Of a stretch of 64,000 nucleotides of DNA, positions 36,040 through 48,096 are shown in pieces (position 1 is the first letter of the stretch; every line of letters starts with the position of its first letter). Source of the DNA: Thermoleophilia bacterium (GTDB lineage Bacteria > Actinomycetota > Thermoleophilia > Gaiellales > Gaiellaceae); contig JAICJI010000004.1 in NCBI GenBank assembly GCA_025928515.1, positions 1-64,000 on the forward strand. Direction: 5' to 3'. Below the pieces are notes generated by a model, which was not told where the DNA came from, ran no database searches, and saw only the letters and a program-made list of their open reading frames with translations. Made by a program: the position numbers and the translations under genes.

Positions 36040-37419
36040 CTACGCACGCGCCGGCTCGAACCTGAGCTTCGCGGCTTCGGCGGGCACCTCGGTCGGGTAG
36101 TCGCCGGTGAGGCACCCGCGACAAAGAGCCGACGCGGGCCGTTGCGTCGCGTCGACGAGCCCGTCGTGCGAGAGGTAGGCGAGCGAGGTGGCGCCGAGAT
36201 GCTCGCGCACCTCCTCGACAGTCCGGGTCGAGGCGATCATCTCGGACGGGTCGGCGAGGTCGATCCCGTAGAAGCACTGGCCGATCACGGGCGGCGAGGA
36301 GACGCGGAGGTGCACCTCGGCCGCGCCCGCGTCGAAGAGCATCCGCACGATCTCGCGGGTCGTGTTGCCCCTCACGATCGAGTCGTCGACGGCGACGACG
36401 CGCTTGCCCGAGACCTCGGCGACGGGGTGGTACTTGAGCTTGATGCCCTGCCGGCGGAGCTCCTGGTCGGGCTGGATGAACGTGCGCTGGACGTAGCGGT
36501 TCTTGATCAGGCCCTCGCTGAAGGGGAGCCCGAGCTGGCGGGCGAAGCCAATTGCCGCCGGCGTGCCCGAATCGGGGATGGGGAGGACGAGGTCGGCCTC
36601 GACCGGAGCCTCCCGCGCAAGCTGTTCGCCCATCCGCACGCGCGCGTTGTGCACTTCCATCCCCTCGAGCCGGCTGTCCGGACGCGCGAGGTAGAAGAAC
36701 TCCCAGATGCAGAGCGCACCGCCCTCGGCGCGCTCGAGCACCTGTGTCGCGTGGAGCCCGTCGGCGTCCGCGACGACGAGCTCGCCGGGCGCGACCTCGC
36801 GGACGAGCTCCGCTCCGACCAGGTCGAGCGCGCAGGTCTCCGAGGCGAACACCAGGTCGTCCTGAATCCGACCGATCACGAGCGGGCGAAAGCCGTGCTC
36901 GTCGCGGAAGGCGACCAGCCGTCCCTCCGACAAGGCGACGATCGAATACGCACCGTCGAGGCGGCGCATCGCGTTCGCGACGGCCTCGTCGAGCGGAGCC
37001 GAATCGTTGGCGATCAACCCCGCGACCAGCTCACTGTCGGATGTCGTTCCGATCCGCACGCCGTCCGCGCGCAGTTCATCGCGGAGCTCGCCGACGTTGA
37101 TCAGGTTCCCGTTGTGACCGAGGGCGACGGTGCGCGCGCGTCCGTGCTGGACGAGCGGCTGCGCGTTCGCCCATTGCGACGAGCCCGTCGTGGAGTAGCG
37201 CGTGTGCCCGATCGCCACCTGGCCGCGCAGGCCGCCGAGCTTCTGCTCGTCGAAGACCTGGGAGACGAGGCCGAGGTCGCGCAGTGCCGTCAGGCGCCCG
37301 TGCTCGGAGACAGCGATCCCCGCCGACTCCTGGCCGCGATGCTGCAGTGCGAAGAGGCCGAAATACGAGAGCCGCGCGACGTCGCGCTCCGGTGCGTAGA
37401 CGCCGAACACGCCGCACAT
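36040..37419 (-). CDS. purF: Amidophosphoribosyltransferase
   Basis: A 459-residue PurF. MCGVFG places the catalytic N-terminal Cys directly after Met, so no propeptide is needed. Later motifs are LPIPDSGTPAAIGFARQLGL and VVAVDDSIVRGNTTREIV (PRPP site). Cysteines at ALCIWEF, GQCFYG and ALCRGCLTGDYP fit the [4Fe-4S] ligands of the Bacillus-type enzyme. It commits PRPP to purine synthesis. Its ATG overlaps the purL stop. Confidence 0.96.
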   Translation of the reverse strand: MCGVFGVYAPERDVARLSYFGLFALQHRGQESAGIAVSEHGRLTALRDLGLVSQVFDEQKLGGLRGQVAIGHTRYSTTGSSQWANAQPLVQHGRARTVALGHNGNLINVGELRDELRADGVRIGTTSDSELVAGLIANDSAPLDEAVANAMRRLDGAYSIVALSEGRLVAFRDEHGFRPLVIGRIQDDLVFASETCALDLVGAELVREVAPGELVVADADGLHATQVLERAEGGALCIWEFFYLARPDSRLEGMEVHNARVRMGEQLAREAPVEADLVLPIPDSGTPAAIGFARQLGLPFSEGLIKNRYVQRTFIQPDQELRRQGIKLKYHPVAEVSGKRVVAVDDSIVRGNTTREIVRMLFDAGAAEVHLRVSSPPVIGQCFYGIDLADPSEMIASTRTVEEVREHLGATSLAYLSHDGLVDATQRPASALCRGCLTGDYPTEVPAEAAKLRFEPARA

Positions 37420-39332
37420 CAGGCAACGACTCCGATCTGGGTGAAGCCGCGGGAGCCGAGCCGGCTCACGCGTCCCGGCCGGCAGGCGAGGATCGCGGCC
37501 CCGCGGCGGGAGTCGTAGTCGGCGGGGATCTCGACCTCCGCCTCGAGCCCGCCACTCCAGGCCGCGGCCTCGGCCAACGCCCCAGCGATTCCGCCGCTGC
37601 CGACGTCGTGGCACAGGGTCAGGTGGGGCGCCGCCTTCCAGAGGAAGCGGATCAGGGCCGTCTCGGCCGCGAGCGATCCGCCCGGCGAGGTGGCAAGCAG
37701 GACTGCGTCGCCGCTCTGCCAGCGTGCTGGAACCCTCCGCACGTCCGGCACGAGCCCGACACACCCGACGACCGGCGTCGGCGGGATCGAGGCACCGTCG
37801 GCATCGTTGTAGAGCGACACGTTGCCGGAGACGACCGGGACGCCGAGCGCCTCCGCGGCCTGCGCGATTCCCTCGATCGCCTGCGCGAGCTCGTGCGCGA
37901 TCGCCGGCTTCTCGGGGTTGCCGAAGTTGAGGCAGTCGGTGAAGCCGATCGGCTCGCCGCCGGCGCACGCGACGTTGCGGGCGGCGCCGAGCGTCGCCTG
38001 GACGCCTGCGCGGAAGCCGTCGGTCTCGCCGGGCGCGGGGCCCTGCAGCGCGACCGCGAGGCCACGCAGGGACGGCCGCAGGCGGAGGACCGCGGCGTCG
38101 AGCCCGGGGCGGCGCACAGTCCGGGAGCCGACGAGGTGGTCGTACTGCTCGATCACCTCGCGGACGTCGAGCTCGGTCGGCGTGACCTGCCGCGGCTCGC
38201 GATGCTCGGCCTGCTGCTCGACCTCGTAGCGCGGGCACTCGTCCGTGAGCAGCCGCGCCGGGATGTCGCCCACGACCTCGTCCTCGTGGAACGCGCGCAA
38301 CGCACCGGAGTCGGTTACCTCACCGATCGCGGTGCACGGCAGCTCCCAGCGGTCGCAGACGGCGCGCACCGAGTCGAGCATCTCCGGCCGCACGACCGCG
38401 ACCATCCGCTCCTGCGACTCCGAAATCATGATCTCCCACGGCTCCATGCCCTCTTCTCGCAGGGGCACAAGGTCGAGATGGACGTCGATCCCCGTGTCCC
38501 CCGCGGCCATCTCCGAAAGAGCGGACGCGAGACCTGCCGCCCCGCAGTCCTGGAGCGACTCGACGTAGCCGGCTCCGACGAGCTCGAGCGAGACCTCGAT
38601 CAGCTTCTTGCCGGTGAACGGGTCGCCGACCTGAACCGACGGGCGCTTGTCGGCGTCGTTCTCGCTCAGCTCCGCGCTCGCGAGCACCGAGGCGCCGCCG
38701 ATGCCGTCGCGGCCTGTGGTCGCGCCGTAGAGGACGACGACCCGCCCGGGCCCGCTCGCCTTCGCCGAGTGCAGCCGGTCGGCCTCGAGCAGCCCGACGC
38801 ACATCGCGTTGACGAGACAGTTCGAGGCGTATGCGGGGTCGAAGACGGTCTGCCCGCCGACCGTCGGCACGCCGACGCAGTTGCCGTAGTGGCCGATGCC
38901 CGCAACGGCCTGCTGGAACTGGAAGCCGGGCTCTCCGAACCAGAGCCCGTCGAGCAGCGCGATCGGGCGCGCGCCCATCGCGATCACGTCGCGGAGGATC
39001 CCGCCGATCCCCGTCGCCGCTCCCTGGAAGGGCTCGACGGCCGACGGATGGTTGTGCGACTCGACCTTGAACGCGACCGCTGTCCCGTCGCCGAGGTCGA
39101 GCACGCCCGCGTTCTCGCCCGGCCCCTGGAGGACGCGCGGACCAGCCGACGGCAACCGCTTGAGCAGCAGCGCCGAATGCTTGTACCCGCAGTGCTCCGA
39201 CCAGAGGAGCGAGAAGACCGCGAGCTCGAAATGGTTCGGATCGCGGCCGAGCAACTCCCGGATACGTTCCGCTTCCCAGTCGGTCAGACCGAGGGCGCGG
39301 TGCAGGGACGTCTGGGCGGCCAGCTCCGTCAG
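37419..39332 (-). CDS. purL: Phosphoribosylformylglycinamidine synthase subunit PurL, probable CTG start
   Basis: Motifs are FSLLWSEHCGYKHSALLLKR, VAFKVESHNHPSAVEPFQGA and LQDCGAAGLASALSEM. The track starts at a TTG (39254), but 26 further in-frame codons encode TELAAQTSLHRALGLTDWEA, the conserved PurL N-terminus. No ATG, GTG or TTG precedes it before a stop. CTG at 39332 lies seven bases after TAGACT, matching the other leaderless starts. The protein would be about 637 aa, against 730-760 for usual small PurL. The shortfall is in the last domain after IPPTPVVGCVGLV, although HDVGSGGIAGALAEA is kept. It works with PurQ and PurS, encoded 12 kb away. Confidence 0.88.
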   Translation of the reverse strand: MTELAAQTSLHRALGLTDWEAERIRELLGRDPNHFELAVFSLLWSEHCGYKHSALLLKRLPSAGPRVLQGPGENAGVLDLGDGTAVAFKVESHNHPSAVEPFQGAATGIGGILRDVIAMGARPIALLDGLWFGEPGFQFQQAVAGIGHYGNCVGVPTVGGQTVFDPAYASNCLVNAMCVGLLEADRLHSAKASGPGRVVVLYGATTGRDGIGGASVLASAELSENDADKRPSVQVGDPFTGKKLIEVSLELVGAGYVESLQDCGAAGLASALSEMAAGDTGIDVHLDLVPLREEGMEPWEIMISESQERMVAVVRPEMLDSVRAVCDRWELPCTAIGEVTDSGALRAFHEDEVVGDIPARLLTDECPRYEVEQQAEHREPRQVTPTELDVREVIEQYDHLVGSRTVRRPGLDAAVLRLRPSLRGLAVALQGPAPGETDGFRAGVQATLGAARNVACAGGEPIGFTDCLNFGNPEKPAIAHELAQAIEGIAQAAEALGVPVVSGNVSLYNDADGASIPPTPVVGCVGLVPDVRRVPARWQSGDAVLLATSPGGSLAAETALIRFLWKAAPHLTLCHDVGSGGIAGALAEAAAWSGGLEAEVEIPADYDSRRGAAILACRPGRVSRLGSRGFTQIGVVA

Positions 39333-39339
39333 GTGATTC

Positions 39340-39345
39340 AGTCTA
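39340..39345 (-). promoter_or_regulatory. Leaderless -10 element for purL
   Basis: TAGACT on the minus strand, seven bases before CTG 39332. Part of the divergent promoter region shared with the EamA transporter. Confidence 0.5.
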
Positions 39346-39401
39346 GCCGGGGCCGCGGCGGAATCTCACGGGAGCCGGCCACGTTGCGTTCCATTAGGTA
39401 G

Positions 39402-40307
39402 ATGCGTCGGCCGGCCGTCCTCCTCGTGGTGCTCGCGCTCATTTGGGGCGCGTCGTTCATGCTGATCAAGATCGCCGACCGGCAGCTCGCGCCGGCCACG
39501 CTGATTCTCGCCAGGATCGGCTCGGCGACGCTCCTGCTCGCGGCGGTCGCGCCGCTTCGGCTCGGCATGGAGCGGACGCTTGCAGAGTTGCGAGCCGGCT
39601 GGCGGTGGCTCGTCGTGGTCGGGCTCGTGAACACCGCGATCCCGTTCTGGCTCCTGTCGTGGAGTGAGACGCGGATCGATTCGGGCCTCGCTTCGATCCT
39701 GCAGGCGGGAGTGCCGATGTTCAGCGCGCTCCTCGCGTTCGGCTTCTTCCGCGAGTCCCGGGTGGTCGGCGTGCGCCTCGCAGGCCTCGTCGTCGGCTTC
39801 GTGGGCGTTGCGCTTCTCGTCGGGGCGCAGCCGCAGGGAAAGCTGCTCGCCGCATTCGCGGTCGTGGCCGTCGCGTTCTGTTACGCGAGCGGACAGCTGC
39901 TCGCCGGCCGCCACCTCCGCAGCACGCCGCCGCTGGTGGTGGCGCTCGGCTCGACCGCCGTCTCGACCCTCGCGGCGCTTCCCGCCGGGATCGTGCAAGC
40001 GCCCACCGGGATGTGGCACGGCGAGACGATCGCGGCGATTCTCGTCCTCGGCCTCGTGGGGACGGCGGTCGCGTACCTCCTCTTCTTCGCTCTGATCCAG
40101 CAGGCCGGCCCCGTCTACGCAGGGCTGGTGACGTACCTCGTGCCGCCGATCGCACTCGCTTACGGCGCCGTGTTCCTCGGTGAGCGCTTCGGCGCCTACG
40201 CCTTCGTCGGGCTCGTCCTGATCCTCGGCGGCGTCGCCCTGGCCACCGGATCGGTGCGGCTGGCTGCGCTGCGCGCCCGCCGAGCCGAAGCGCGCGAAGC
40301 CGCCTGA
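39402..40307 (+). CDS. EamA/DMT-superfamily transporter (301 aa)
   Basis: Ten predicted membrane helices in two EamA repeats. The first begins PAVLLVVLALIWGASFMLIK; the second ends with VTYLVPPIALAYGAVFLGER, the conserved L-x-P-x-x-x-x-x-x-x-x-x-G-E motif. It probably exports small metabolites or amino acids; no substrate can be read. It starts with an ATG close to AGGTAG and is divergent from purL. Confidence 0.9.
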   Translation: MRRPAVLLVVLALIWGASFMLIKIADRQLAPATLILARIGSATLLLAAVAPLRLGMERTLAELRAGWRWLVVVGLVNTAIPFWLLSWSETRIDSGLASILQAGVPMFSALLAFGFFRESRVVGVRLAGLVVGFVGVALLVGAQPQGKLLAAFAVVAVAFCYASGQLLAGRHLRSTPPLVVALGSTAVSTLAALPAGIVQAPTGMWHGETIAAILVLGLVGTAVAYLLFFALIQQAGPVYAGLVTYLVPPIALAYGAVFLGERFGAYAFVGLVLILGGVALATGSVRLAALRARRAEAREAA

Positions 40308-40324
40308 CGCGCTGGATTCGGGAC

Positions 40325-40666
40325 ATGGCCGACTTCCTCCACACGATGGTCCGGATCACGGATCCGCAGCGGAGCCGCGCGTTCTACGAGGCGCTCGGCT
40401 TCCGCTTCGAGCGCGACCTGGACATCGTCCGGAACGGCGAGAAGGAGGCGACGAACTATTTCTTCTCGCTCGGCGACGATGCGTCCGTGCTCGAGCTCAC
40501 GTTCAATCACGACGGCCGCAGCCACGACCTCGGCACGGGTTACGGCCACAACGCCATCGCCGCCGACGACCTCGACGAGACACTCGCGGGGCGGCTCACG
40601 AATCTGCTTCGTCCAGGATCCCGACGGCTACTCAACAATGTTGAGTTGACGACCGGATCCGGCTAG
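40325..40666 (+). pseudogene. Truncated copy of the VOC gene at 44314
   Basis: The first 88 codons match the 44314 gene (same MVRITDP..SRxFYEALGFRFER start). A deletion of 53 bases then joins GACACTCGCGG to GGCGGCTC and shifts the frame. After a last shared stretch, ATCTGCTTCGTCCAGGATCC, the sequence diverges for good at CTCAACAATGTTGAG. The predicted protein therefore ends in an unrelated 25-residue tail and lacks the second half of the fold. The 3' half is nearly identical in DNA to the intact copy, whereas the 5' half has many synonymous changes. Confidence 0.8.
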
Positions 40667-40719
40667 GACTGAACGCCACCCGCTGTGGTCGGCCACTTGG
40701 TGGTGCGCCGGTGTCGTTC

Positions 40720-40725
40720 TAGGCT
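40720..40725 (+). promoter_or_regulatory. Promoter and leaderless -10 for the cyclase-ATPase gene
   Basis: TAGGCT ends six bases before the GTG at 40732, and TTGGTG lies 17 bases upstream of it as a plausible -35. No Shine-Dalgarno is present. Confidence 0.55.
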
Positions 40726-40731
40726 TCGGGG

Positions 40732-43700
40732 GTGACTGCCTGTGTGAACTGCGGCGCCGAGAACCGCGAAGGTGCGAAGTTCTGTGGCGAGTGCGGTGTT
40801 GCTCTCGCGCTCGTCTGCCCCGCATGTGGTGCGCCGAACGCAGCAGAACGAAAGTTCTGCGACGAGTGTGGCGCTGCGCTTTCCGAGGAGGTGACCGCTG
40901 CGTCTGCGGACGCGGTTGCCACTGGGGCGACTGCTCCACCGCCCAAGGCGCCGGTGGCGGAGCGCCGTTACGTGTCGGTCTTGTTTGCGGATCTCGTGGG
41001 TTTCACCGCGGCATCGGAGCAGCGGGATGCGGAGGAGACGCGGGAGTTGTTGTCGCGGTATTTCGAGGGGTGCCGCCGGTTGATCGGCCTCTACGGGGGC
41101 ACCGTGGAGAAGTTCATTGGCGATGCCGTGATGGCGGTGTGGGGGGCGCCGCTCGCGACCGAGGACGACGCGGAGCGTGCCGTCCGGGCGGCGCTCGACC
41201 TGGTGGCGGCAGTGACCGCGCTCGGCGATGAGGTGGGGGCCACTGGGTTGCGGGCGCGGGCGGCGGTGCTGAGCGGCGAGGCGGCGGTGACGATCGGCGC
41301 CGAGGGCGAAGGGATGATCGCCGGCGACCTGGTCAACACCGCCTCGCGGATGCAGGGGATCGCTGAGCCCGGCCAAGTGCTGGTCGGCGAGGCCACGCGG
41401 CGGGCGACCGAGGCGGCGATCGTCTACGAGAGCGCCGGCAGCCACGAGCTCAGGGGCAAGACGGGACTCGTGCCGCTCTGGCGTGCAGTCCGCGTCGTCT
41501 CCGGCGCGCGCGGCACGCTCAAGTCGGAGGGTCTCGAGGCTCCGTTCGTGGGCCGCGACCGCGAGCTCCGCCTGCTCAAGGAGCTTTTCCACGCAAGCGC
41601 GGAGGAGCGCAAGGCGCACCTCGTCTCGGTGACGGGCATCGGCGGCATTGGCAAGTCGCGGCTTGCCTGGGAGTTCTTCAAGTACATAGATGGGCTCCAG
41701 CAGACAACGCTCTGGCACCGCGGCCGCTGCCTAGCCTACGGCGAGGGCGTCACATACTGGGCCCTCGCGGACATGGTGCGGATGCGCTGCCGGATCGCAG
41801 AGGACGAAGATTCAGGCCCGGCGCTCGAAAAGCTGCACGCGACGCTGACCGAGTACGTGCTCGACGAGGAGGAGCGGCGGTTCGTCGAGCCAAGGCTCGC
41901 GCACCTGCTCGGACTCGAGGAGCGCGAGGCGAGCTCGAGGGAGGAGCTGTTCGGCGCTTGGCGTCTCTTCTTCGAGCGGCTCGGCGATGCGGCGCCTGTC
42001 GCGCTTGTCTTCGAGGACATGCAGTGGGCGGACGCGAGCCTGCTCGACTTCGTCGAGTACCTGCTCGAGTGGTCGCGTGACCAGCCGCTCTACGTGATCA
42101 CGCTAGCGCGGCCGGAGCTGCTCGAGAACCGGCCGACGTGGGGCGCGGGAAAGCGCATGTTCACGGCCCTCTACATCGAACCGCTTTCTGAGCAGCCAAT
42201 GCAGGAACTCCTGGACGGGCTCGTGCCGGGGCTGCCCGACTCCCTGCGCCGCCAGATCCTCGCGCGCGCGGAGGGAGTCCCGCTGTACGCCGTCGAGACG
42301 GTGCGGATGCTGCTCGACCGAGGCCTGCTCGTCCAGGAGGGAAGCGTCTACCGACCGGTCGGGCAGGTCGAGACCCTCGAGGTGCCTGAGACGCTGCACG
42401 CGTTGATCGCGGCGCGACTCGACGGGCTCTCGGCCGACGAACGGCGGCTGCTGCAGGATGCCGCCGTGCTCGGCAAGACGTTCACGCGCCAGGCACTCGC
42501 TGCCGTCAGCGGCGTCGTCGACGCTGACCTCGCGGCGCCCCTCACCGGGCTCGTTCGCAAGGAGGTGCTCTCGATCCAGGCCGACCCGCGCTCGCCGGAT
42601 CGCGGTCAGTACGGCTTTCTCCAGGACCTCGTGCGGCGCGTCGCCTACGAGACGCTCTCGAAACGCGAACGGCGCGCCCGCCACCTCGCCGCAGCCGCAT
42701 ACCTCGAGAGCGCATTCGTCGGCGAGCAGGACGAGGTAATCGAGGTGATCGCGTCGCACTACCTCGACGCCTACCGGGTGCTCCCGGACGAGGGCGATGC
42801 CGCCGAACTGCGCGCCAACGCCCGCCGGATGCTGACGCGGGCAGGCGAGCGGGCTGCCTCGCTCGCGGCGCCGGGCGAGGCACGGCGCTACTTCGAGCAG
42901 GCCTGCGAGCTCACGGACAAGTCGCTCGAGCGGGCGGCGCTTCTCGGCCGCGCCGGCAAGATGGCGGGCCAACTCGGCCTGCCGGACGAGGCGAAGCCGC
43001 CGCTCGAGGAGTCGATCGCGATCTACGAGAGCGCCCGGATGAGCTATGTCCTCGGCCGGATCCAGGGCTTCACCGAGCGCCGCGACGAGGCGATCGCCCG
43101 CCTTCAAGACGCCTTCGACATCATCTCTCGCGACGAGCCGGACGAGGACGTCGCCCTGATCGCGGCGCTGCTTGGGCGCGGCTACTGGTTCAAGGGCGAC
43201 CTGGAGAGAGCCGCCGAGTGGACGGAGAAGGCGCTCGACGTCGCCGAGGCCTACGCCTTCCCGGAACCGCTCGCGTTCGCCCTCCGCATCAAGGGTGCGG
43301 TGGCGTTCAGTCGCGGCCACGTGAACGAATCCGACGCGCTGCTGCGCCGCTCCCTCGAGCTGGCGCTCGAGCACGACCTCCTCGAGGAGGCCGCGACCGC
43401 ATACTTCCTCCTCTCCGACGGCGAGTTCCGAAGAGACCACTACGGGGAGGCGCTCGAGTACCTTCGCGAGTCACTCGCCCTCGCCCGGCGCCGAGGGAGC
43501 CGCATAGCAGAGTGGGCCAACCTCTCCGAGCTGACATACCCGCTCTTCATGCTCGGCCGCTGGGACGAGGCGCTCGCCCTCATCCCGGAGCCGAGTGAGG
43601 AGCACACGCGCTCCGGCGCGGTGGTGCTCAGCCTGCTCAGCTCGCTCGCGGAGATTCACCTCCACCGCGGCCGGCCGGAGGAGGCGCGCAGGATCCTTTC

Positions 43701-44256
43701 TCTCTTCTCGCACCTCGAGGGCTCGAGCGACGTCCAGGACCAGTCGTGCTACCTGGCCGCGCGGGCGGCCATCGCCCGCGCCGAGGGCAGGTTCCAGGAC
43801 GCGCTGAAGGACGGCGTAGCTGCGATTGAGGCCGCCGAGACGCTCGGCTACGGACAGCAGGCCGCCAAGCAGGGATTCGTCGCGGCGACTGAGTCCGCGC
43901 TCACGCTCGGCGAGACCGAGACAGCGCGTGGCCTGCTGGCCCGGGCCACTGACGCCCCGCCCGGCCACCGCGCGCCGTTCCTCGACGCGCAGGCGTGTCG
44001 ATTTCGCGGGCGCCTGGATGCGGACGAGGCGCAGTACGGTGCGGCAGAGGCGCTGTTCAGAGAGCTCGAGCTGCCGTTCTGGCTCGCCGTCACCCGAGCC
44101 GAGCACGGCGAGTGGCTCGCCGATCAAGAACGAACCGAGGAGGCGCAGCCGCTCCTCGCAGACGCACGGGAAACGTTCGAGCGCCTCGGCGCGAAGCCGT
44201 ACCTCGATCGTCTCGAGACTGCCGAGGCCGGGCCTCGCGCCGAAGTCACCGCCTAG
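40732..44256 (+). CDS. Zinc ribbon-adenylate cyclase-AAA ATPase-TPR regulator (1174 aa)
   Basis: A multidomain protein. Residues 1-50 are a double zinc ribbon (CVNCG..CGECG, CPACG..CDECG). Residues 80-250 are a class III nucleotide cyclase domain with VSVLFADLVGFTAASEQRD, GGTVEKFIGDAVMAVWGAPL and GDLVNTASRMQGIAEPGQVL. Residues 265-560 form an AAA_16 ATPase with PFVGRDREL, Walker A GIGGIGKS and Walker B ALVFEDMQWAD. The rest is a long TPR-like superhelix. This fits soluble adenylyl cyclase-like STAND signalling proteins. The GTG start sits behind a leaderless promoter. Flanking VOC copies suggest acquisition by recombination. Confidence 0.9.
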   Translation: MTACVNCGAENREGAKFCGECGVALALVCPACGAPNAAERKFCDECGAALSEEVTAASADAVATGATAPPPKAPVAERRYVSVLFADLVGFTAASEQRDAEETRELLSRYFEGCRRLIGLYGGTVEKFIGDAVMAVWGAPLATEDDAERAVRAALDLVAAVTALGDEVGATGLRARAAVLSGEAAVTIGAEGEGMIAGDLVNTASRMQGIAEPGQVLVGEATRRATEAAIVYESAGSHELRGKTGLVPLWRAVRVVSGARGTLKSEGLEAPFVGRDRELRLLKELFHASAEERKAHLVSVTGIGGIGKSRLAWEFFKYIDGLQQTTLWHRGRCLAYGEGVTYWALADMVRMRCRIAEDEDSGPALEKLHATLTEYVLDEEERRFVEPRLAHLLGLEEREASSREELFGAWRLFFERLGDAAPVALVFEDMQWADASLLDFVEYLLEWSRDQPLYVITLARPELLENRPTWGAGKRMFTALYIEPLSEQPMQELLDGLVPGLPDSLRRQILARAEGVPLYAVETVRMLLDRGLLVQEGSVYRPVGQVETLEVPETLHALIAARLDGLSADERRLLQDAAVLGKTFTRQALAAVSGVVDADLAAPLTGLVRKEVLSIQADPRSPDRGQYGFLQDLVRRVAYETLSKRERRARHLAAAAYLESAFVGEQDEVIEVIASHYLDAYRVLPDEGDAAELRANARRMLTRAGERAASLAAPGEARRYFEQACELTDKSLERAALLGRAGKMAGQLGLPDEAKPPLEESIAIYESARMSYVLGRIQGFTERRDEAIARLQDAFDIISRDEPDEDVALIAALLGRGYWFKGDLERAAEWTEKALDVAEAYAFPEPLAFALRIKGAVAFSRGHVNESDALLRRSLELALEHDLLEEAATAYFLLSDGEFRRDHYGEALEYLRESLALARRRGSRIAEWANLSELTYPLFMLGRWDEALALIPEPSEEHTRSGAVVLSLLSSLAEIHLHRGRPEEARRILSLFSHLEGSSDVQDQSCYLAARAAIARAEGRFQDALKDGVAAIEAAETLGYGQQAAKQGFVAATESALTLGETETARGLLARATDAPPGHRAPFLDAQACRFRGRLDADEAQYGAAEALFRELELPFWLAVTRAEHGEWLADQERTEEAQPLLADARETFERLGAKPYLDRLETAEAGPRAEVTA

Positions 44257-44300
44257 CCTGGGCCGCTTCGCCGCGTACTCCGACGCGAACCGCGGCGCCT

Positions 44301-44306
44301 TAGACT
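44301..44306 (+). promoter_or_regulatory. Leaderless -10 element for the intact VOC gene
   Basis: TAGACT, seven bases before the GTG at 44314. Confidence 0.5.
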
Positions 44307-44313
44307 GCTGCGC

Positions 44314-44706
44314 GTGGCTGAGTTCCTGCACACGATGGTGCGGATCACCGATCCGGAAAAGAGTCGCACCTTCTACGAGGCGCTCGGCTTCCGTTTCGAG
44401 CGAGACATGGACATCGTACGGAACGGCGAGAAGGAGGCAACGAACTACTTCTTCTCGCTCGGCGACGACGCGTCCGTGCTCGAGCTCACGTTCAATCACG
44501 ACGGCCGCAGCTACGACCTCGGCACGGGTTACGGCCACATCGCCATCGCCGCCGACGACCTCGACGAGACACTCGCGGCGCTGAATGAGCAAGGGATCGA
44601 GCCCGAGCGCGAGCCCTATCGCGTCAACGAGGGCGGCTCGCGGATCTGCTTCGTCCAGGATCCCGACGGCTACCGCATCGAGCTGATCGACCGCAGCGGG
44701 AAGTAG
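44314..44706 (+). CDS. Glyoxalase I-like VOC protein (130 aa)
   Basis: A complete two-module VOC protein: FLHTMVRITDPEKSRTFYEA, VLELTFNHDG, GYGHIAIAADDLDETLAALN and GSRICFVQDPDGYRIELIDR. His, Glu, His and Glu at the expected positions (LHTMVRI, LELTFNH, GHIAIA, IELIDR) match glyoxalase I metal ligands. It could detoxify methylglyoxal with a thiol. It is followed two bases later by the GFA-domain gene, also glutathione-related by family, which supports a joint role. A broken copy lies at 40325. Confidence 0.88.
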   Translation: MAEFLHTMVRITDPEKSRTFYEALGFRFERDMDIVRNGEKEATNYFFSLGDDASVLELTFNHDGRSYDLGTGYGHIAIAADDLDETLAALNEQGIEPEREPYRVNEGGSRICFVQDPDGYRIELIDRSGK

Positions 44707-44708
44707 AC

Positions 44709-45164
44709 GTGCTCGAGGGCGGCTGCTCGTGCGGTTCCGTCCGCTATCGGCTCACGAGCGACCCGCTCTTCGTGCACTGCTGCCACTGCCTCGACTGCCA
44801 GCGGCAGACGGGGAGCGCGTTCGTGATCAACATCCTGATCGAGGCCGACCAGGTGGAGATCACGACGGGCGAGCCGCAGTCCGTGGCGGTGCCGCGTGGC
44901 AACGGCTCGACGCAGGAGATCCTCCGCTGCCCCAGCTGCGAGGTCGCGCTGTACAGCCACTACACCGACCCGGCGGTTGCCTTCATCCGCGCGGGGACCC
45001 TCGACGAGCCGGCGAGCGTCTCACCCGACGTGCACATCTTCACCCGTTCGAAACTGCCGTGGGTGGCGCTCCCCGAGGGCGTGCCCTCGTTCGAGACCTA
45101 TTACGACATCGACGCGCTCTGGCCCGCGGAGAGCCTCGATCGAGTCCGCGCGTCACGCGGGTAG
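44709..45164 (+). CDS. GFA-domain (glutathione-dependent formaldehyde-activating-like) protein
   Basis: A 151-residue zinc protein: EGGCSCGSVRYRL, FVHCCHCLDCQRQTGSAFVI and ILRCPSCEVALYSHY give the CxCG, CxxCxxxxG and CxxCG zinc ligands of GFA proteins. Actinobacteria generally use mycothiol, so the substrate may be another thiol adduct. It starts with GTG two bases after the VOC gene and is probably co-transcribed with it. Confidence 0.88.
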   Translation: MLEGGCSCGSVRYRLTSDPLFVHCCHCLDCQRQTGSAFVINILIEADQVEITTGEPQSVAVPRGNGSTQEILRCPSCEVALYSHYTDPAVAFIRAGTLDEPASVSPDVHIFTRSKLPWVALPEGVPSFETYYDIDALWPAESLDRVRASRG

Positions 45165-45174: not shown

Positions 45175-45729
45175 ATGGTCGTCGCGCTCGCACTCGTTCT
45201 CTCGGCCGCTTTCGGCGCGGGGGATCAGTACCTCGGGAGCCTGACCGGCTCGGGGCACGCCTGGGCCGTCGGTTGGTCGAGCGACGTATCGCTCCTCTCG
45301 GCTCCGTGGCTCGTGCTGCCGTTCCTCGCCGGAACGACGCAGCGACTCCCGCGACGTGCCGCGCTCGTCGGTCTCGCGTGCACGTACGCCGCGCTCCTCG
45401 CGTACGGACTGATGACGCTCAGTCCAGTCGAGCATGCGCACATCACTGCGGCGACCGTTCGCGGCTTCGTCGTCAGCGAGCGCACCGTGCTCGTCGGAGG
45501 CATCGTGACGGGGCCGCTCTTCGGCTGGTTCGGACAGCAGTGGCGGACGCGACGCGCGATCACCGGCGCGCTCGTCACGGCCGCCGCGCTCTGTCTCGAG
45601 CCGCTCGCGCGGCGGGTGACCATCGACCCGATCGGCTATCGCGCGGTCTGGCTCGCGGAGGTCGCTGCGGGGCTGGCGCTTGCGGCCGCTGTGCTCGCTC
45701 GCCGCTTCTCGAGGGGCGTCCACGCATAG
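45175..45729 (+). CDS. Multi-pass membrane protein (DUF6518-like), 184 aa
   Basis: Five to six hydrophobic segments: MVVALALVLSAAFGAGDQYL, LLSAPWLVLPFLAGTTQ, ALVGLACTYAALLAYGLMTL, TVLVGGIVTGPLFGWFGQQW and LAEVAAGLALAAAVLARRF. The pattern resembles DUF6518 proteins of actinobacteria, but this is a tentative match. The ATG is preceded by TAGCAT and no ribosome binding site. The role is unknown. Confidence 0.7.
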   Translation: MVVALALVLSAAFGAGDQYLGSLTGSGHAWAVGWSSDVSLLSAPWLVLPFLAGTTQRLPRRAALVGLACTYAALLAYGLMTLSPVEHAHITAATVRGFVVSERTVLVGGIVTGPLFGWFGQQWRTRRAITGALVTAAALCLEPLARRVTIDPIGYRAVWLAEVAAGLALAAAVLARRFSRGVHA

Positions 45730-45759
45730 CTTTCGGCACTTTGCGGGAATGACGAGCCT

Positions 45760-47439
45760 GTGTGGCCGGAGGGTTCCACCGAGGAGCACGTCCGGCGTCT
45801 GCAGTCGGTTACGGACGCGGCCCTCGCGCACCTTCGTCTTGATGAGCTCCTAGCCGCCCTTCTCGAGCGCACGCGCCAGATCCTCGAAGTCGACACGTGC
45901 GCGATCCTCCTGCTCGACGAGGAGACGAACGAGCTCGTCGCCTGTGCCGCGCTCGGCATCGAGGAGGAGGTCGAGCAGGGCGTGCGCGTGCCGGTCGGCG
46001 GCGGCTTCGCAGGCCGCATCGCCGCCGAGAAGCGCCCCGTGATCCTCGACGACGTCGACCACGCGCACGTGCTCAACCCTCTGCTCCGGGAGAAGGGGAT
46101 CAAGTCGATGCTCGGGGTGCCGCTCGTCGTTGAGGGCGAGGTGCGCGGGGTGCTCCACGTCGGCTCTCTCGTGCTCCGGGCGTTCCAGGATGAAGAGGTC
46201 CAGCTGCTGCAGCTCGTGGCCGACCGCGCGGCGCTCGCGATCGAGCATGCCCGTCTCTTCGAGGCCGAGCGCACCGCCCGCGAGCGGATCGAGCACGTGC
46301 AGGCCGTGACCGACGCGGCGCTCGCGCACCTCGAGGTGAACGAGCTGCTTCATGTCCTGTTGCCGCGGATCCGGGACATCCTCCGCACCGACACCTGTGC
46401 CGTCCTCCTGCTCGACGAGGAGTCGAAGGAGCTCGTCGCGCGCGCGGCTCTCGGCATCGAAGAGGAGGTCGGCGTGCGCATTCCGCTCGGTGCCGGCTTC
46501 GCCGGCCGGGTCGCAGCAGAGGCGCGGCCGATGATCATCGACGTCGACGAGTACCAGGTCTACAACCCGATCCTGCGCCAGAAGCACCTCAAGACGATGC
46601 TAGGGGTGCCGCTGCTGGTGCGGGGTGCCGCGCTCGGCGTGCTGCACGTCGGGACGCTCACGCCGCGGCGATTCGCGCGCGAGGAGGTCGAGCTGCTCCA
46701 GCTCGTGGCCGAACGCGTCGCGAGCGCCATCGAGCGGGCCCAGGTCCACGAGGAGCTCATCCAACTCGACCAGCTCAAGCTGAACTTCGTCGCGATCGCC
46801 TCGCACGAGTTGCGCACGCCCGCGACAGCCGTCTACGGAGTGCTCAAGACGCTCGTCGCTCGGGGCCCGGATCTGGGCGAAGAGCTCCGCGAGGAGCTCC
46901 TGCGCGTCGGTGTCGAGCAGGGCGAGCGCCTGCGCCGGCTGCTCGAGGAGCTGCTCGACCTCTCTCGCCTCGACGCGCGGGCCATCACCGTCGAGCCACG
47001 GCCGGTCGTGCTGAAGGCGGCCCTGACGGACGTCGTCCGAGGCGCGCACTCGGTCACCGACGCAGTCGAGCTCGATATCCCGGACGACCTCGCAGCGGTC
47101 GTCGATCCCCTCGTGCTCGAGCGGGTCGTCTCGAACCTCGTCGCAAATGCGGTGCGTTACGGCGCACCGCCGATCCGGATAGTCGCGCAGACGCGCGACC
47201 GCCACCTCAGAGTGGCCGTGGAGGACTCGGGCCCCGGCGTTCCGAAGGAGCTCGAGGGGCGGATCTTCGACCGCTTCGCGCGCGGCGGCGCGGACACCGG
47301 TCACGGTCTCGGCCTTGCGATCGCCCGCGCGTACGCGCAGGCGCACGGAGGGGACCTCGTCTACGACCGCCGCCCGGGCGGCGCGCGTTTCGAGCTGCTC
47401 ATCCCGCAGGAGCGAAACGGGCTGAGCAAGCCCGGCTAG
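45760..47439 (+). CDS. GAF-GAF sensor histidine kinase (559 aa)
   Basis: Two GAF domains in tandem (about 10-165 and 180-335) that are recent-looking copies of each other: LGIEEEVEQGVRVPVGGGFA and LGIEEEVGVRIPLGAGFA share the same flanks. The kinase core follows: H-box FVAIASHELRTPATAVYG, N-box LVANAVRYG, G1 DSGPGVP, F-box IFDRFARGG and G2 GHGLGLAIARAYA. No transmembrane segment, so it senses a cytoplasmic ligand. The GTG start is the only one that keeps the first GAF helix. No response regulator gene is adjacent. Confidence 0.92.
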   Translation: MWPEGSTEEHVRRLQSVTDAALAHLRLDELLAALLERTRQILEVDTCAILLLDEETNELVACAALGIEEEVEQGVRVPVGGGFAGRIAAEKRPVILDDVDHAHVLNPLLREKGIKSMLGVPLVVEGEVRGVLHVGSLVLRAFQDEEVQLLQLVADRAALAIEHARLFEAERTARERIEHVQAVTDAALAHLEVNELLHVLLPRIRDILRTDTCAVLLLDEESKELVARAALGIEEEVGVRIPLGAGFAGRVAAEARPMIIDVDEYQVYNPILRQKHLKTMLGVPLLVRGAALGVLHVGTLTPRRFAREEVELLQLVAERVASAIERAQVHEELIQLDQLKLNFVAIASHELRTPATAVYGVLKTLVARGPDLGEELREELLRVGVEQGERLRRLLEELLDLSRLDARAITVEPRPVVLKAALTDVVRGAHSVTDAVELDIPDDLAAVVDPLVLERVVSNLVANAVRYGAPPIRIVAQTRDRHLRVAVEDSGPGVPKELEGRIFDRFARGGADTGHGLGLAIARAYAQAHGGDLVYDRRPGGARFELLIPQERNGLSKPG

Positions 47440-48026
47440 CCCTGCAGATCCTTCTGGATTTCCGCGAGCGTCTGCGGCCCGACGACGCCGTCCTCGCCCA
47501 GCCCCTTGGCGAGCTGGAACTTCTCGACCGCGATCTTTGTCGCCGGCCCGTAGTCGCCGTCAGCCGTGCCCGGCGAGAAGCCGAGCCGCGTGAGAGCCTG
47601 CTGGAGAAGCTTCACCTGCGGGCCCGTGTCGCCGGGGTTGAGCGGTTGCGCCGGACCCTGTGTCGCGGGGGGCGTGACTGTTTGCGTCGTGGTCTGCGTC
47701 GTGGTCGTGATGTGCTTCGCCGGCGGCGCGACCTGCGGCGGGGCGGGCTTGCTCCCGTTGAAGACGCCGAATGCGGCGAGGATCGCGAAGAAGACGGCGA
47801 GGACGGAGACGCCGATGATCGCAGCCTGGGCCGTCGTGAGCGTCCTGCCCGCGACCACGATGTCCCGGCGGCCCGGCCTGCCGGCGTAGTCCTCCTCCGG
47901 CAGCATCCAGACTTCGTCGGCGTCCTCGTAGGCGCCGCGGCTGACGGCACTTTGCGTCTCTGTCGGCGGCTCGGGCTCGTCGAACCAGTCGTCGTAGCCC
48001 GGGTCGCGAGGGTCGCGACCCTCCAT
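47436..48026 (-). CDS. Membrane-anchored peptidoglycan-binding domain protein (196 aa)
   Basis: An acidic cytoplasmic N-terminus, one membrane helix (TTAQAAIIGVSVLAVFFAIL), a Thr/Pro linker (HITTTTQTTTQTVTPP), then a PG_binding_1 domain (GDTGPQVKLLQQALTRLGFS, GDYGPATKIAVEKFQ). The domain binds peptidoglycan outside the membrane. The ATG sits eight bases after a TACGGT element. Its 3' end overlaps the kinase gene by four bases, so they are convergent. Confidence 0.88.
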   Translation of the reverse strand: MEGRDPRDPGYDDWFDEPEPPTETQSAVSRGAYEDADEVWMLPEEDYAGRPGRRDIVVAGRTLTTAQAAIIGVSVLAVFFAILAAFGVFNGSKPAPPQVAPPAKHITTTTQTTTQTVTPPATQGPAQPLNPGDTGPQVKLLQQALTRLGFSPGTADGDYGPATKIAVEKFQLAKGLGEDGVVGPQTLAEIQKDLQG

Positions 48027-48034
48027 GGCTCGTG

Positions 48035-48040
48035 ACCGTA
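48035..48040 (-). promoter_or_regulatory. Candidate leaderless -10 for the peptidoglycan-binding protein
   Basis: TACGGT on the minus strand, eight bases before the ATG at 48026. Confidence 0.35.
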
Positions 48041-48096
48041 CAGGGTCGGAGCCCAGGCCGACAAGAGAGGGCGCCTTGCGGCGTGTGGCGATCCGC

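Follow-up and report, generated by a model that had tools for sequence, protein, structure and literature searches.

Repeat-bounded duplications with hybrid junctions are formed in pneumococcus by homologous recombination (PMC3784515), and gene conversion between bacterial paralogues, for example between rRNA operons, is well known (PMC8022953). The locus described here bears a resemblance to both. It lies in a window of 64,000 nucleotides, the whole stretch of DNA that was analysed, from a 2.0-Mb draft MAG (G000; 66 contigs, 78.7% complete) whose relatives are labelled Thermoleophilia/Gaiellaceae, and it consists of two copies of a detoxification-type, glyoxalase-like VOC gene, A and B, placed as direct repeats on either side of a gene for a 1174-aa cyclase-ATPase. 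As in the Streptococcus pneumoniae merodiploids (PMC3784515), direct repeats surround a segment, the repeat junctions are hybrid and the recombination would be of the RecA type; the tandem duplications of that system, however, were made in the laboratory by transformation, whereas the window has a foreign gene, whose entry route we infer, between diverged and decaying copies. The likeness to paralogue conversion is that of a homogenised tract with unlike ends, but here one of the two copies is a pseudogene, and one of the unlike ends falls at DNA imported from another species.

The VOC copies and the cyclase gene

Over 264 bp, copies A (40325-40631) and B (44314-44706) are 92% identical (blastn E 3e-106), after which a 53-bp gap in A is followed by 43 bp at 95%; to the left of the copies, no similarity was found between the two flanks. 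These alignments agree with the first-pass annotation, which had described a broken copy A and an intact copy B as direct repeats around the cyclase gene, with a 53-bp deletion in A and unrelated sequences to the left of each. Taken to its last alignable part, copy A is a pseudogene at 40325-40666 (plus strand) in which the deletion, situated after 40588, shifts the frame and a 5-nt insertion follows at 40632-40636. Its Pfam Glyoxalase match is limited to residues 5-87, the frame is not intact and the C-terminal Glu ligand is missing, DPDGYRIEL being replaced by DPDGYSTMLS and a stop; copy A is dead.

Copy B (44314-44706, plus strand) is intact and encodes a glyoxalase-I-like protein of 130 aa with a full-length match to the VOC fold family (PF00903, 8.6e-21 over residues 5-124). 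All four metal-ligand positions are present as H6, E57, H75 and E123; the ligands of E. coli glyoxalase I are H5, E56, H74 and E122. The protein aligns end to end with E. coli GloA (PDB 1f9z, 1.2e-19) but falls below the NCBIfam cut-offs for GloA and glyox_I (91 and 90 bits vs 165 and 120, respectively). Copy B is a homologue, not an assigned lactoylglutathione lyase, and because it scores below the curated cut-offs for that enzyme its activity is putative.

The 3' end of copy A had been considered lost at CTCAACAATGTTGAG, a palindrome at 40631-40645 (plus strand) with a single copy in the genome. This part of the first-pass annotation does not hold, since the tail can be aligned beyond the palindrome (GAGTTGA-CGACCGG vs GAGCTGATCGACCGC in B). 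The palindrome is instead the product of the 5-nt insertion (TAC[TCAAC]AATGTTGAG), with which the original frame ends in a stop at 40647-40649 and the codon for the last metal ligand is lost. A VOC relic at the native locus of the sister species G006 (L107, 10517-10539) has the same tail as window copy A, TCAACAACATTGAGCTGACG, and the first VOC copy of the G006 unit described below (L044A) has an A-type tail of the same length, diverged in sequence. Homology with the normal tail is borderline for window copy A alone (p 0.05) and significant for the G006 relic (p 0.0015); the value for the relic against the window A tail is 0.0005. Single-copy VOC genes have normal tails, without A-type relics. 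The palindrome was rejected as a dispersed repeat or IS end, because it occurs once in the genome and the exact tail pattern is found, among family genomes, only in G000 and the G006 relic. Palindrome-making insertions are known as quasipalindrome template switches (PMC7202029), in which, as here, a short insertion makes imperfect inverted repeats perfect; in contrast to that described process, we infer the window event from its product alone, and it predates the two species compared.

Between the copies, at 40732-44256 (plus strand), lies the gene for the 1174-aa protein, which combines a zinc ribbon, a class III nucleotidyl cyclase, an AAA_16 ATPase and TPR (Pfam Guanylate_cyc and AAA_16 matched; PDB adenylate cyclases, 2w01, 4e-19). 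The catalytic motifs are intact (FADLVGFT at 85, VEKFIGDAVM at 125, GDLVNTASR at 198), and the metal, base-recognition and transition-state motifs expected of a class III adenylyl cyclase with ATPase/TPR are accompanied by a P-loop (GIGGIGKS at 302). Against the TOMM kinase/cyclase fusion model TIGR03903 the protein scores 234 bits, below the cut-off of 706. For each half of the protein the nearest homologue is that of L044 (81% and 91%, ahead of 77% and 80% for the next), so that an N-terminal half swapped in from a paralogue need not be invoked. A plasmid origin was rejected, all plasmid matches to the cyclase being below 60% identity, and the 79-aa ORF to the left of the G006 unit had no plasmid match; a role in defence was set aside on the sequence of the cyclase itself, whose similarity to Pycsar cyclases is weak. 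Elsewhere, cyclase-ATPase paralogues are arranged in head-to-tail arrays of three (L103 in G086 and L105 in G098).

Native gene order and the shared unit

All compared genomes are draft MAGs, and those bearing the unit number two. The left flank is common to the relatives: purL (37419-39254, minus strand) is followed by an EamA transporter gene (39402-40307, plus strand; Pfam EamA 1.8e-34), the native left neighbour of the VOC gene, with 72-88% nucleotide identity over the purL/EamA stretch in G001, G004, G006, G007 and G010, in all of which EamA occupies the same place. The native order in relatives is purL(-), EamA, GNAT, VOC, then the histidine kinase and purQ/purC(-). In the window, the GNAT acetyltransferase gene between EamA and VOC is deleted, and a residual native VOC leader is found at 40308-40324 on the plus strand (ATTCGGGACATGG vs ATTCGGCCCATGG in G004; window 40301-40587 corresponds to L035 3035-3320). 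The right flank is formed by a GFA-family gene (44709-45164, plus strand; Pfam GFA 3.6e-30) and a GAF-GAF histidine kinase gene (45760-47439, plus strand; Pfam; 81-86% nucleotide identity in G001, G004, G006, G007 and G010). GFA was rejected as incoming DNA, since its order with the kinase gene is native in G006 (L166, 81% nucleotide identity); with GFA native, the extra genes of the window are the cyclase and one VOC copy alone. Within the kinase gene, at 45800-46735, the two GAF domains form an internal duplication that is recognisable in the DNA (~72-73% from half to half in the match to G004).

Relatives without the cyclase, which the first-pass annotation had expected to carry a single VOC gene, do so: at the same locus, G004 (L035) and G007 (L050) each have a lone VOC gene and lack the cyclase (EamA-GNAT-VOC-...-HK), and a single VOC is the rule there in more distant family members too. 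Four window segments match L035 in order, namely 37738-40311, 40301-40587 (copy A with its leader), 44315-44699 (copy B) and 45185-48065. An apparent second VOC in G001 proved to be a one-gene contig overlap (99.4% over 333 bp).

In G006, an arrangement VOC_A-cyclase-VOC_B with both VOC frames open is carried by a 5.3-kb contig (L044). Its similarity to the window covers 40333-44697, going no further than the outer VOC ends, and the flanks beyond are unrelated; among 103 family genomes, the cyclase/VOC junction was found only in G000 and G006. Because G006 carries the same unit, the event is neither private to the window genome nor recent. The proposal that the regulator entered by recombination at a VOC homologue is consistent with shared sequence that ends at the outer VOC borders, but not as an event of this genome alone. 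Relatives with two complete VOC genes and the cyclase in an ancestral position had been named as evidence against that proposal; G006 comes close, with its two open VOC frames, but an ancestral chromosomal position is unsupported. The purL tree is star-like and does not settle the sister relation of G000 and G006.

The left flank of the L044 unit holds a short dispersed repeat of ~32 bp (AGGGGTCATTCCGGAACACTTGGCC type; L044:307-376), which is present in G001, G006 and G010 in several copies per genome. The native VOC gene of G006 survives as an A-type relic; it has no cyclase beside it and is followed by a serine-recombinase element. Large serine recombinases of this family (e.g. L107:10570-12045 in G006) occur in 11 of the 103 family genomes. 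Immediately upstream of the gene they have a conserved end of ~55 nt (...GCGCATGCGAGTGTTCGTGTATGTTCCCTGA type), past which the host sequences of the different sites are unrelated; this suggests low target specificity.

Two further genomes show variation in the VOC gene. G029, from a different genus, bears a VOC copy whose tail is altered in another way and which adjoins an AAA_25 gene (L113:4600-4990), as well as a second, full VOC on a purQ-bearing contig (L112:240-620), possibly an independent VOC duplication around foreign DNA. In G020, two contigs (L110:1-681 and L111:10037-10588) have a common EamA end and VOC start, but the remainder of the VOC gene is diverged between them, as though recombination at the 5' end had joined two alleles or copies of the gene.

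Mosaic structure and exchange between species

The near-identical 3' halves and divergent 5' halves of A and B had been described as a mosaic, and following identity along the copies confirms it: MaxChi places a break at nt 57, with 13/57 mismatches to the left and 11/250 to the right (permutation p = 0.0008). Mismatches in the first 264 bp number 22, 17 of them within the first 105 bp and most at third positions. The pattern is not a constraint effect, because ten single-copy orthologues diverge equally in their 5' and 3' parts (0.189 vs 0.196), as compared with 0.162 vs 0.031 for A and B. In a tree of nt 58-264 the two window copies are sisters (100/97), nearest to G004 rather than to L044.

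Two-state HMM segmentation delimits a block exchanged with the G006 lineage at 41509-44357 (plus strand), with 91.6% identity vs 76.5% to its left and 79.7% to its right, the background being ~80%. Fourfold-site identity to G006 is 0.67-0.87 for the block vs 0.55-0.62 in EamA/purL; within the cyclase gene it is 0.51-0.57 over codons 1-250 and 0.77-0.87 beyond codon 350. Outside the block, the unit is diverged at background level. The right edge of the block is nt 44 of copy B, near the A/B break; these 44 nt at the start of B look like an import, while the remainder of the two copies is homogenised. Most simply, A and B were homogenised along their length, and the 5' end of B was afterwards overwritten by exchange with the G006 lineage. 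The mosaic that the first-pass annotation attributed to recombination or gene conversion is thus real, but the 5' difference is better explained by import (cyclase residue ~260 to nt 44 of B) than by conversion between A and B alone.

Origin of the arrangement

We hypothesize, with a confidence somewhat better than even, that homologous recombination, with VOC sequence acting as the arm, brought the cyclase gene and another VOC copy into a native VOC locus, and that conversion and inter-species exchange followed. The starting point would be a single-copy glyoxalase-like VOC gene between purL-EamA and the histidine kinase gene, into which the cyclase-ATPase gene and a second VOC would have entered by insertion-duplication. 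The unit would already have been present when the window and G006 lineages exchanged DNA. Copy A would then have lost its C-terminal metal ligand through the palindrome-making insertion and, in the window genome, the 53 bp, with copy B retaining the enzyme, and gene conversion would have homogenised both copies. Later, the 2.85-kb block would have been replaced by G006-like DNA, which would account for the present difference between the two copies at the 5' end; the order of these steps and the direction of the exchange are presumptive. As in a RecA-type insertion-duplication, gene-length direct repeats bound the extra segment and relatives without the segment are single-copy. The VOC copies share a similar TAG-AT leader, their 5' ends are overwritten by the later exchange, and the putative capture crossover is without an unambiguous trace. 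The preferred reading needs an extra rearrangement for G006, where the native relic lacks the cyclase and the unit lies on a separate contig.

Less probable, though deserving some weight, is that the VOC gene had already been duplicated in tandem when the cyclase arrived between its copies, by an unrelated route to which VOC homology contributed nothing. The earlier statement that simple tandem duplication does not fit is true of the present state but does not cover an early duplication whose copies were then separated by the cyclase. VOC duplication without this cyclase does occur, as in the altered-tail and full copies of G029 (L113 and L112), and cyclase paralogues form tandem arrays elsewhere (L103, L105); however, no genome of the genus has two adjacent VOC copies without the cyclase, and this order of events does not require a shared unit ending at VOC borders on both sides, as is observed.

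It is rather improbable that VOC-cyclase-VOC was ancestral to the six-species clade and that recombination between the direct VOC repeats removed the cyclase from the relatives with a single VOC. The star-like purL tree of the clade, the ease with which direct repeats would allow such loss and the background divergence of the unit outside the exchanged block are all compatible with it, but distant family members are also single-VOC at the locus, and the normal tails of single-copy VOC genes, free of A-type relics, argue against it.

A site-specific integrase using VOC codon 120 as its attachment site, with A and the palindrome as the left junction and B as the right, is very improbable. The large serine recombinase gene that starts ~90 bp downstream of the A-type VOC relic in G006 speaks for it; however, recombinase homologues have their conserved end just upstream of the gene and a host sequence beyond that varies by site and is not VOC, and in G006 this element end lies ~40-60 bp past the VOC tail. 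The conserved end led us to reject CTCAACAATGTTGAG as a serine-recombinase attachment site. The tail of copy A is moreover a mutated normal tail, and the window unit is without an integrase; no VOC fragments were detected beside recombinase homologues outside G006, and no tRNA attachment site at 30-55 kb of the window. Least credible of all is an assembly artefact joining two strains or loci at the VOC repeat, for which the draft state of the MAG could be cited, since A and B share no exact run longer than 42 bp and both junctions recur in the independent MAG G006.

On present evidence the locus is an ordinary gene insertion or rearrangement, a new example and not a new kind. It offers a readable example of how, in an uncultured soil actinobacterium, a large signalling gene becomes fixed at a conserved locus: the enzyme gene beside it is now present twice, as a decaying copy and as one that has undergone repeated exchange. 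We also entertain, as a distinctly long shot, that the unit is a mobile gene without a mobility enzyme, in which the cyclase gene would loop out via the VOC repeats and re-enter any resident VOC by homologous recombination. If this is true, a signalling gene would spread between species with a housekeeping gene as its docking site, and should VOC repeats turn out to act as docking arms in further genomes, they would provide a simple transposase-free model of gene movement.
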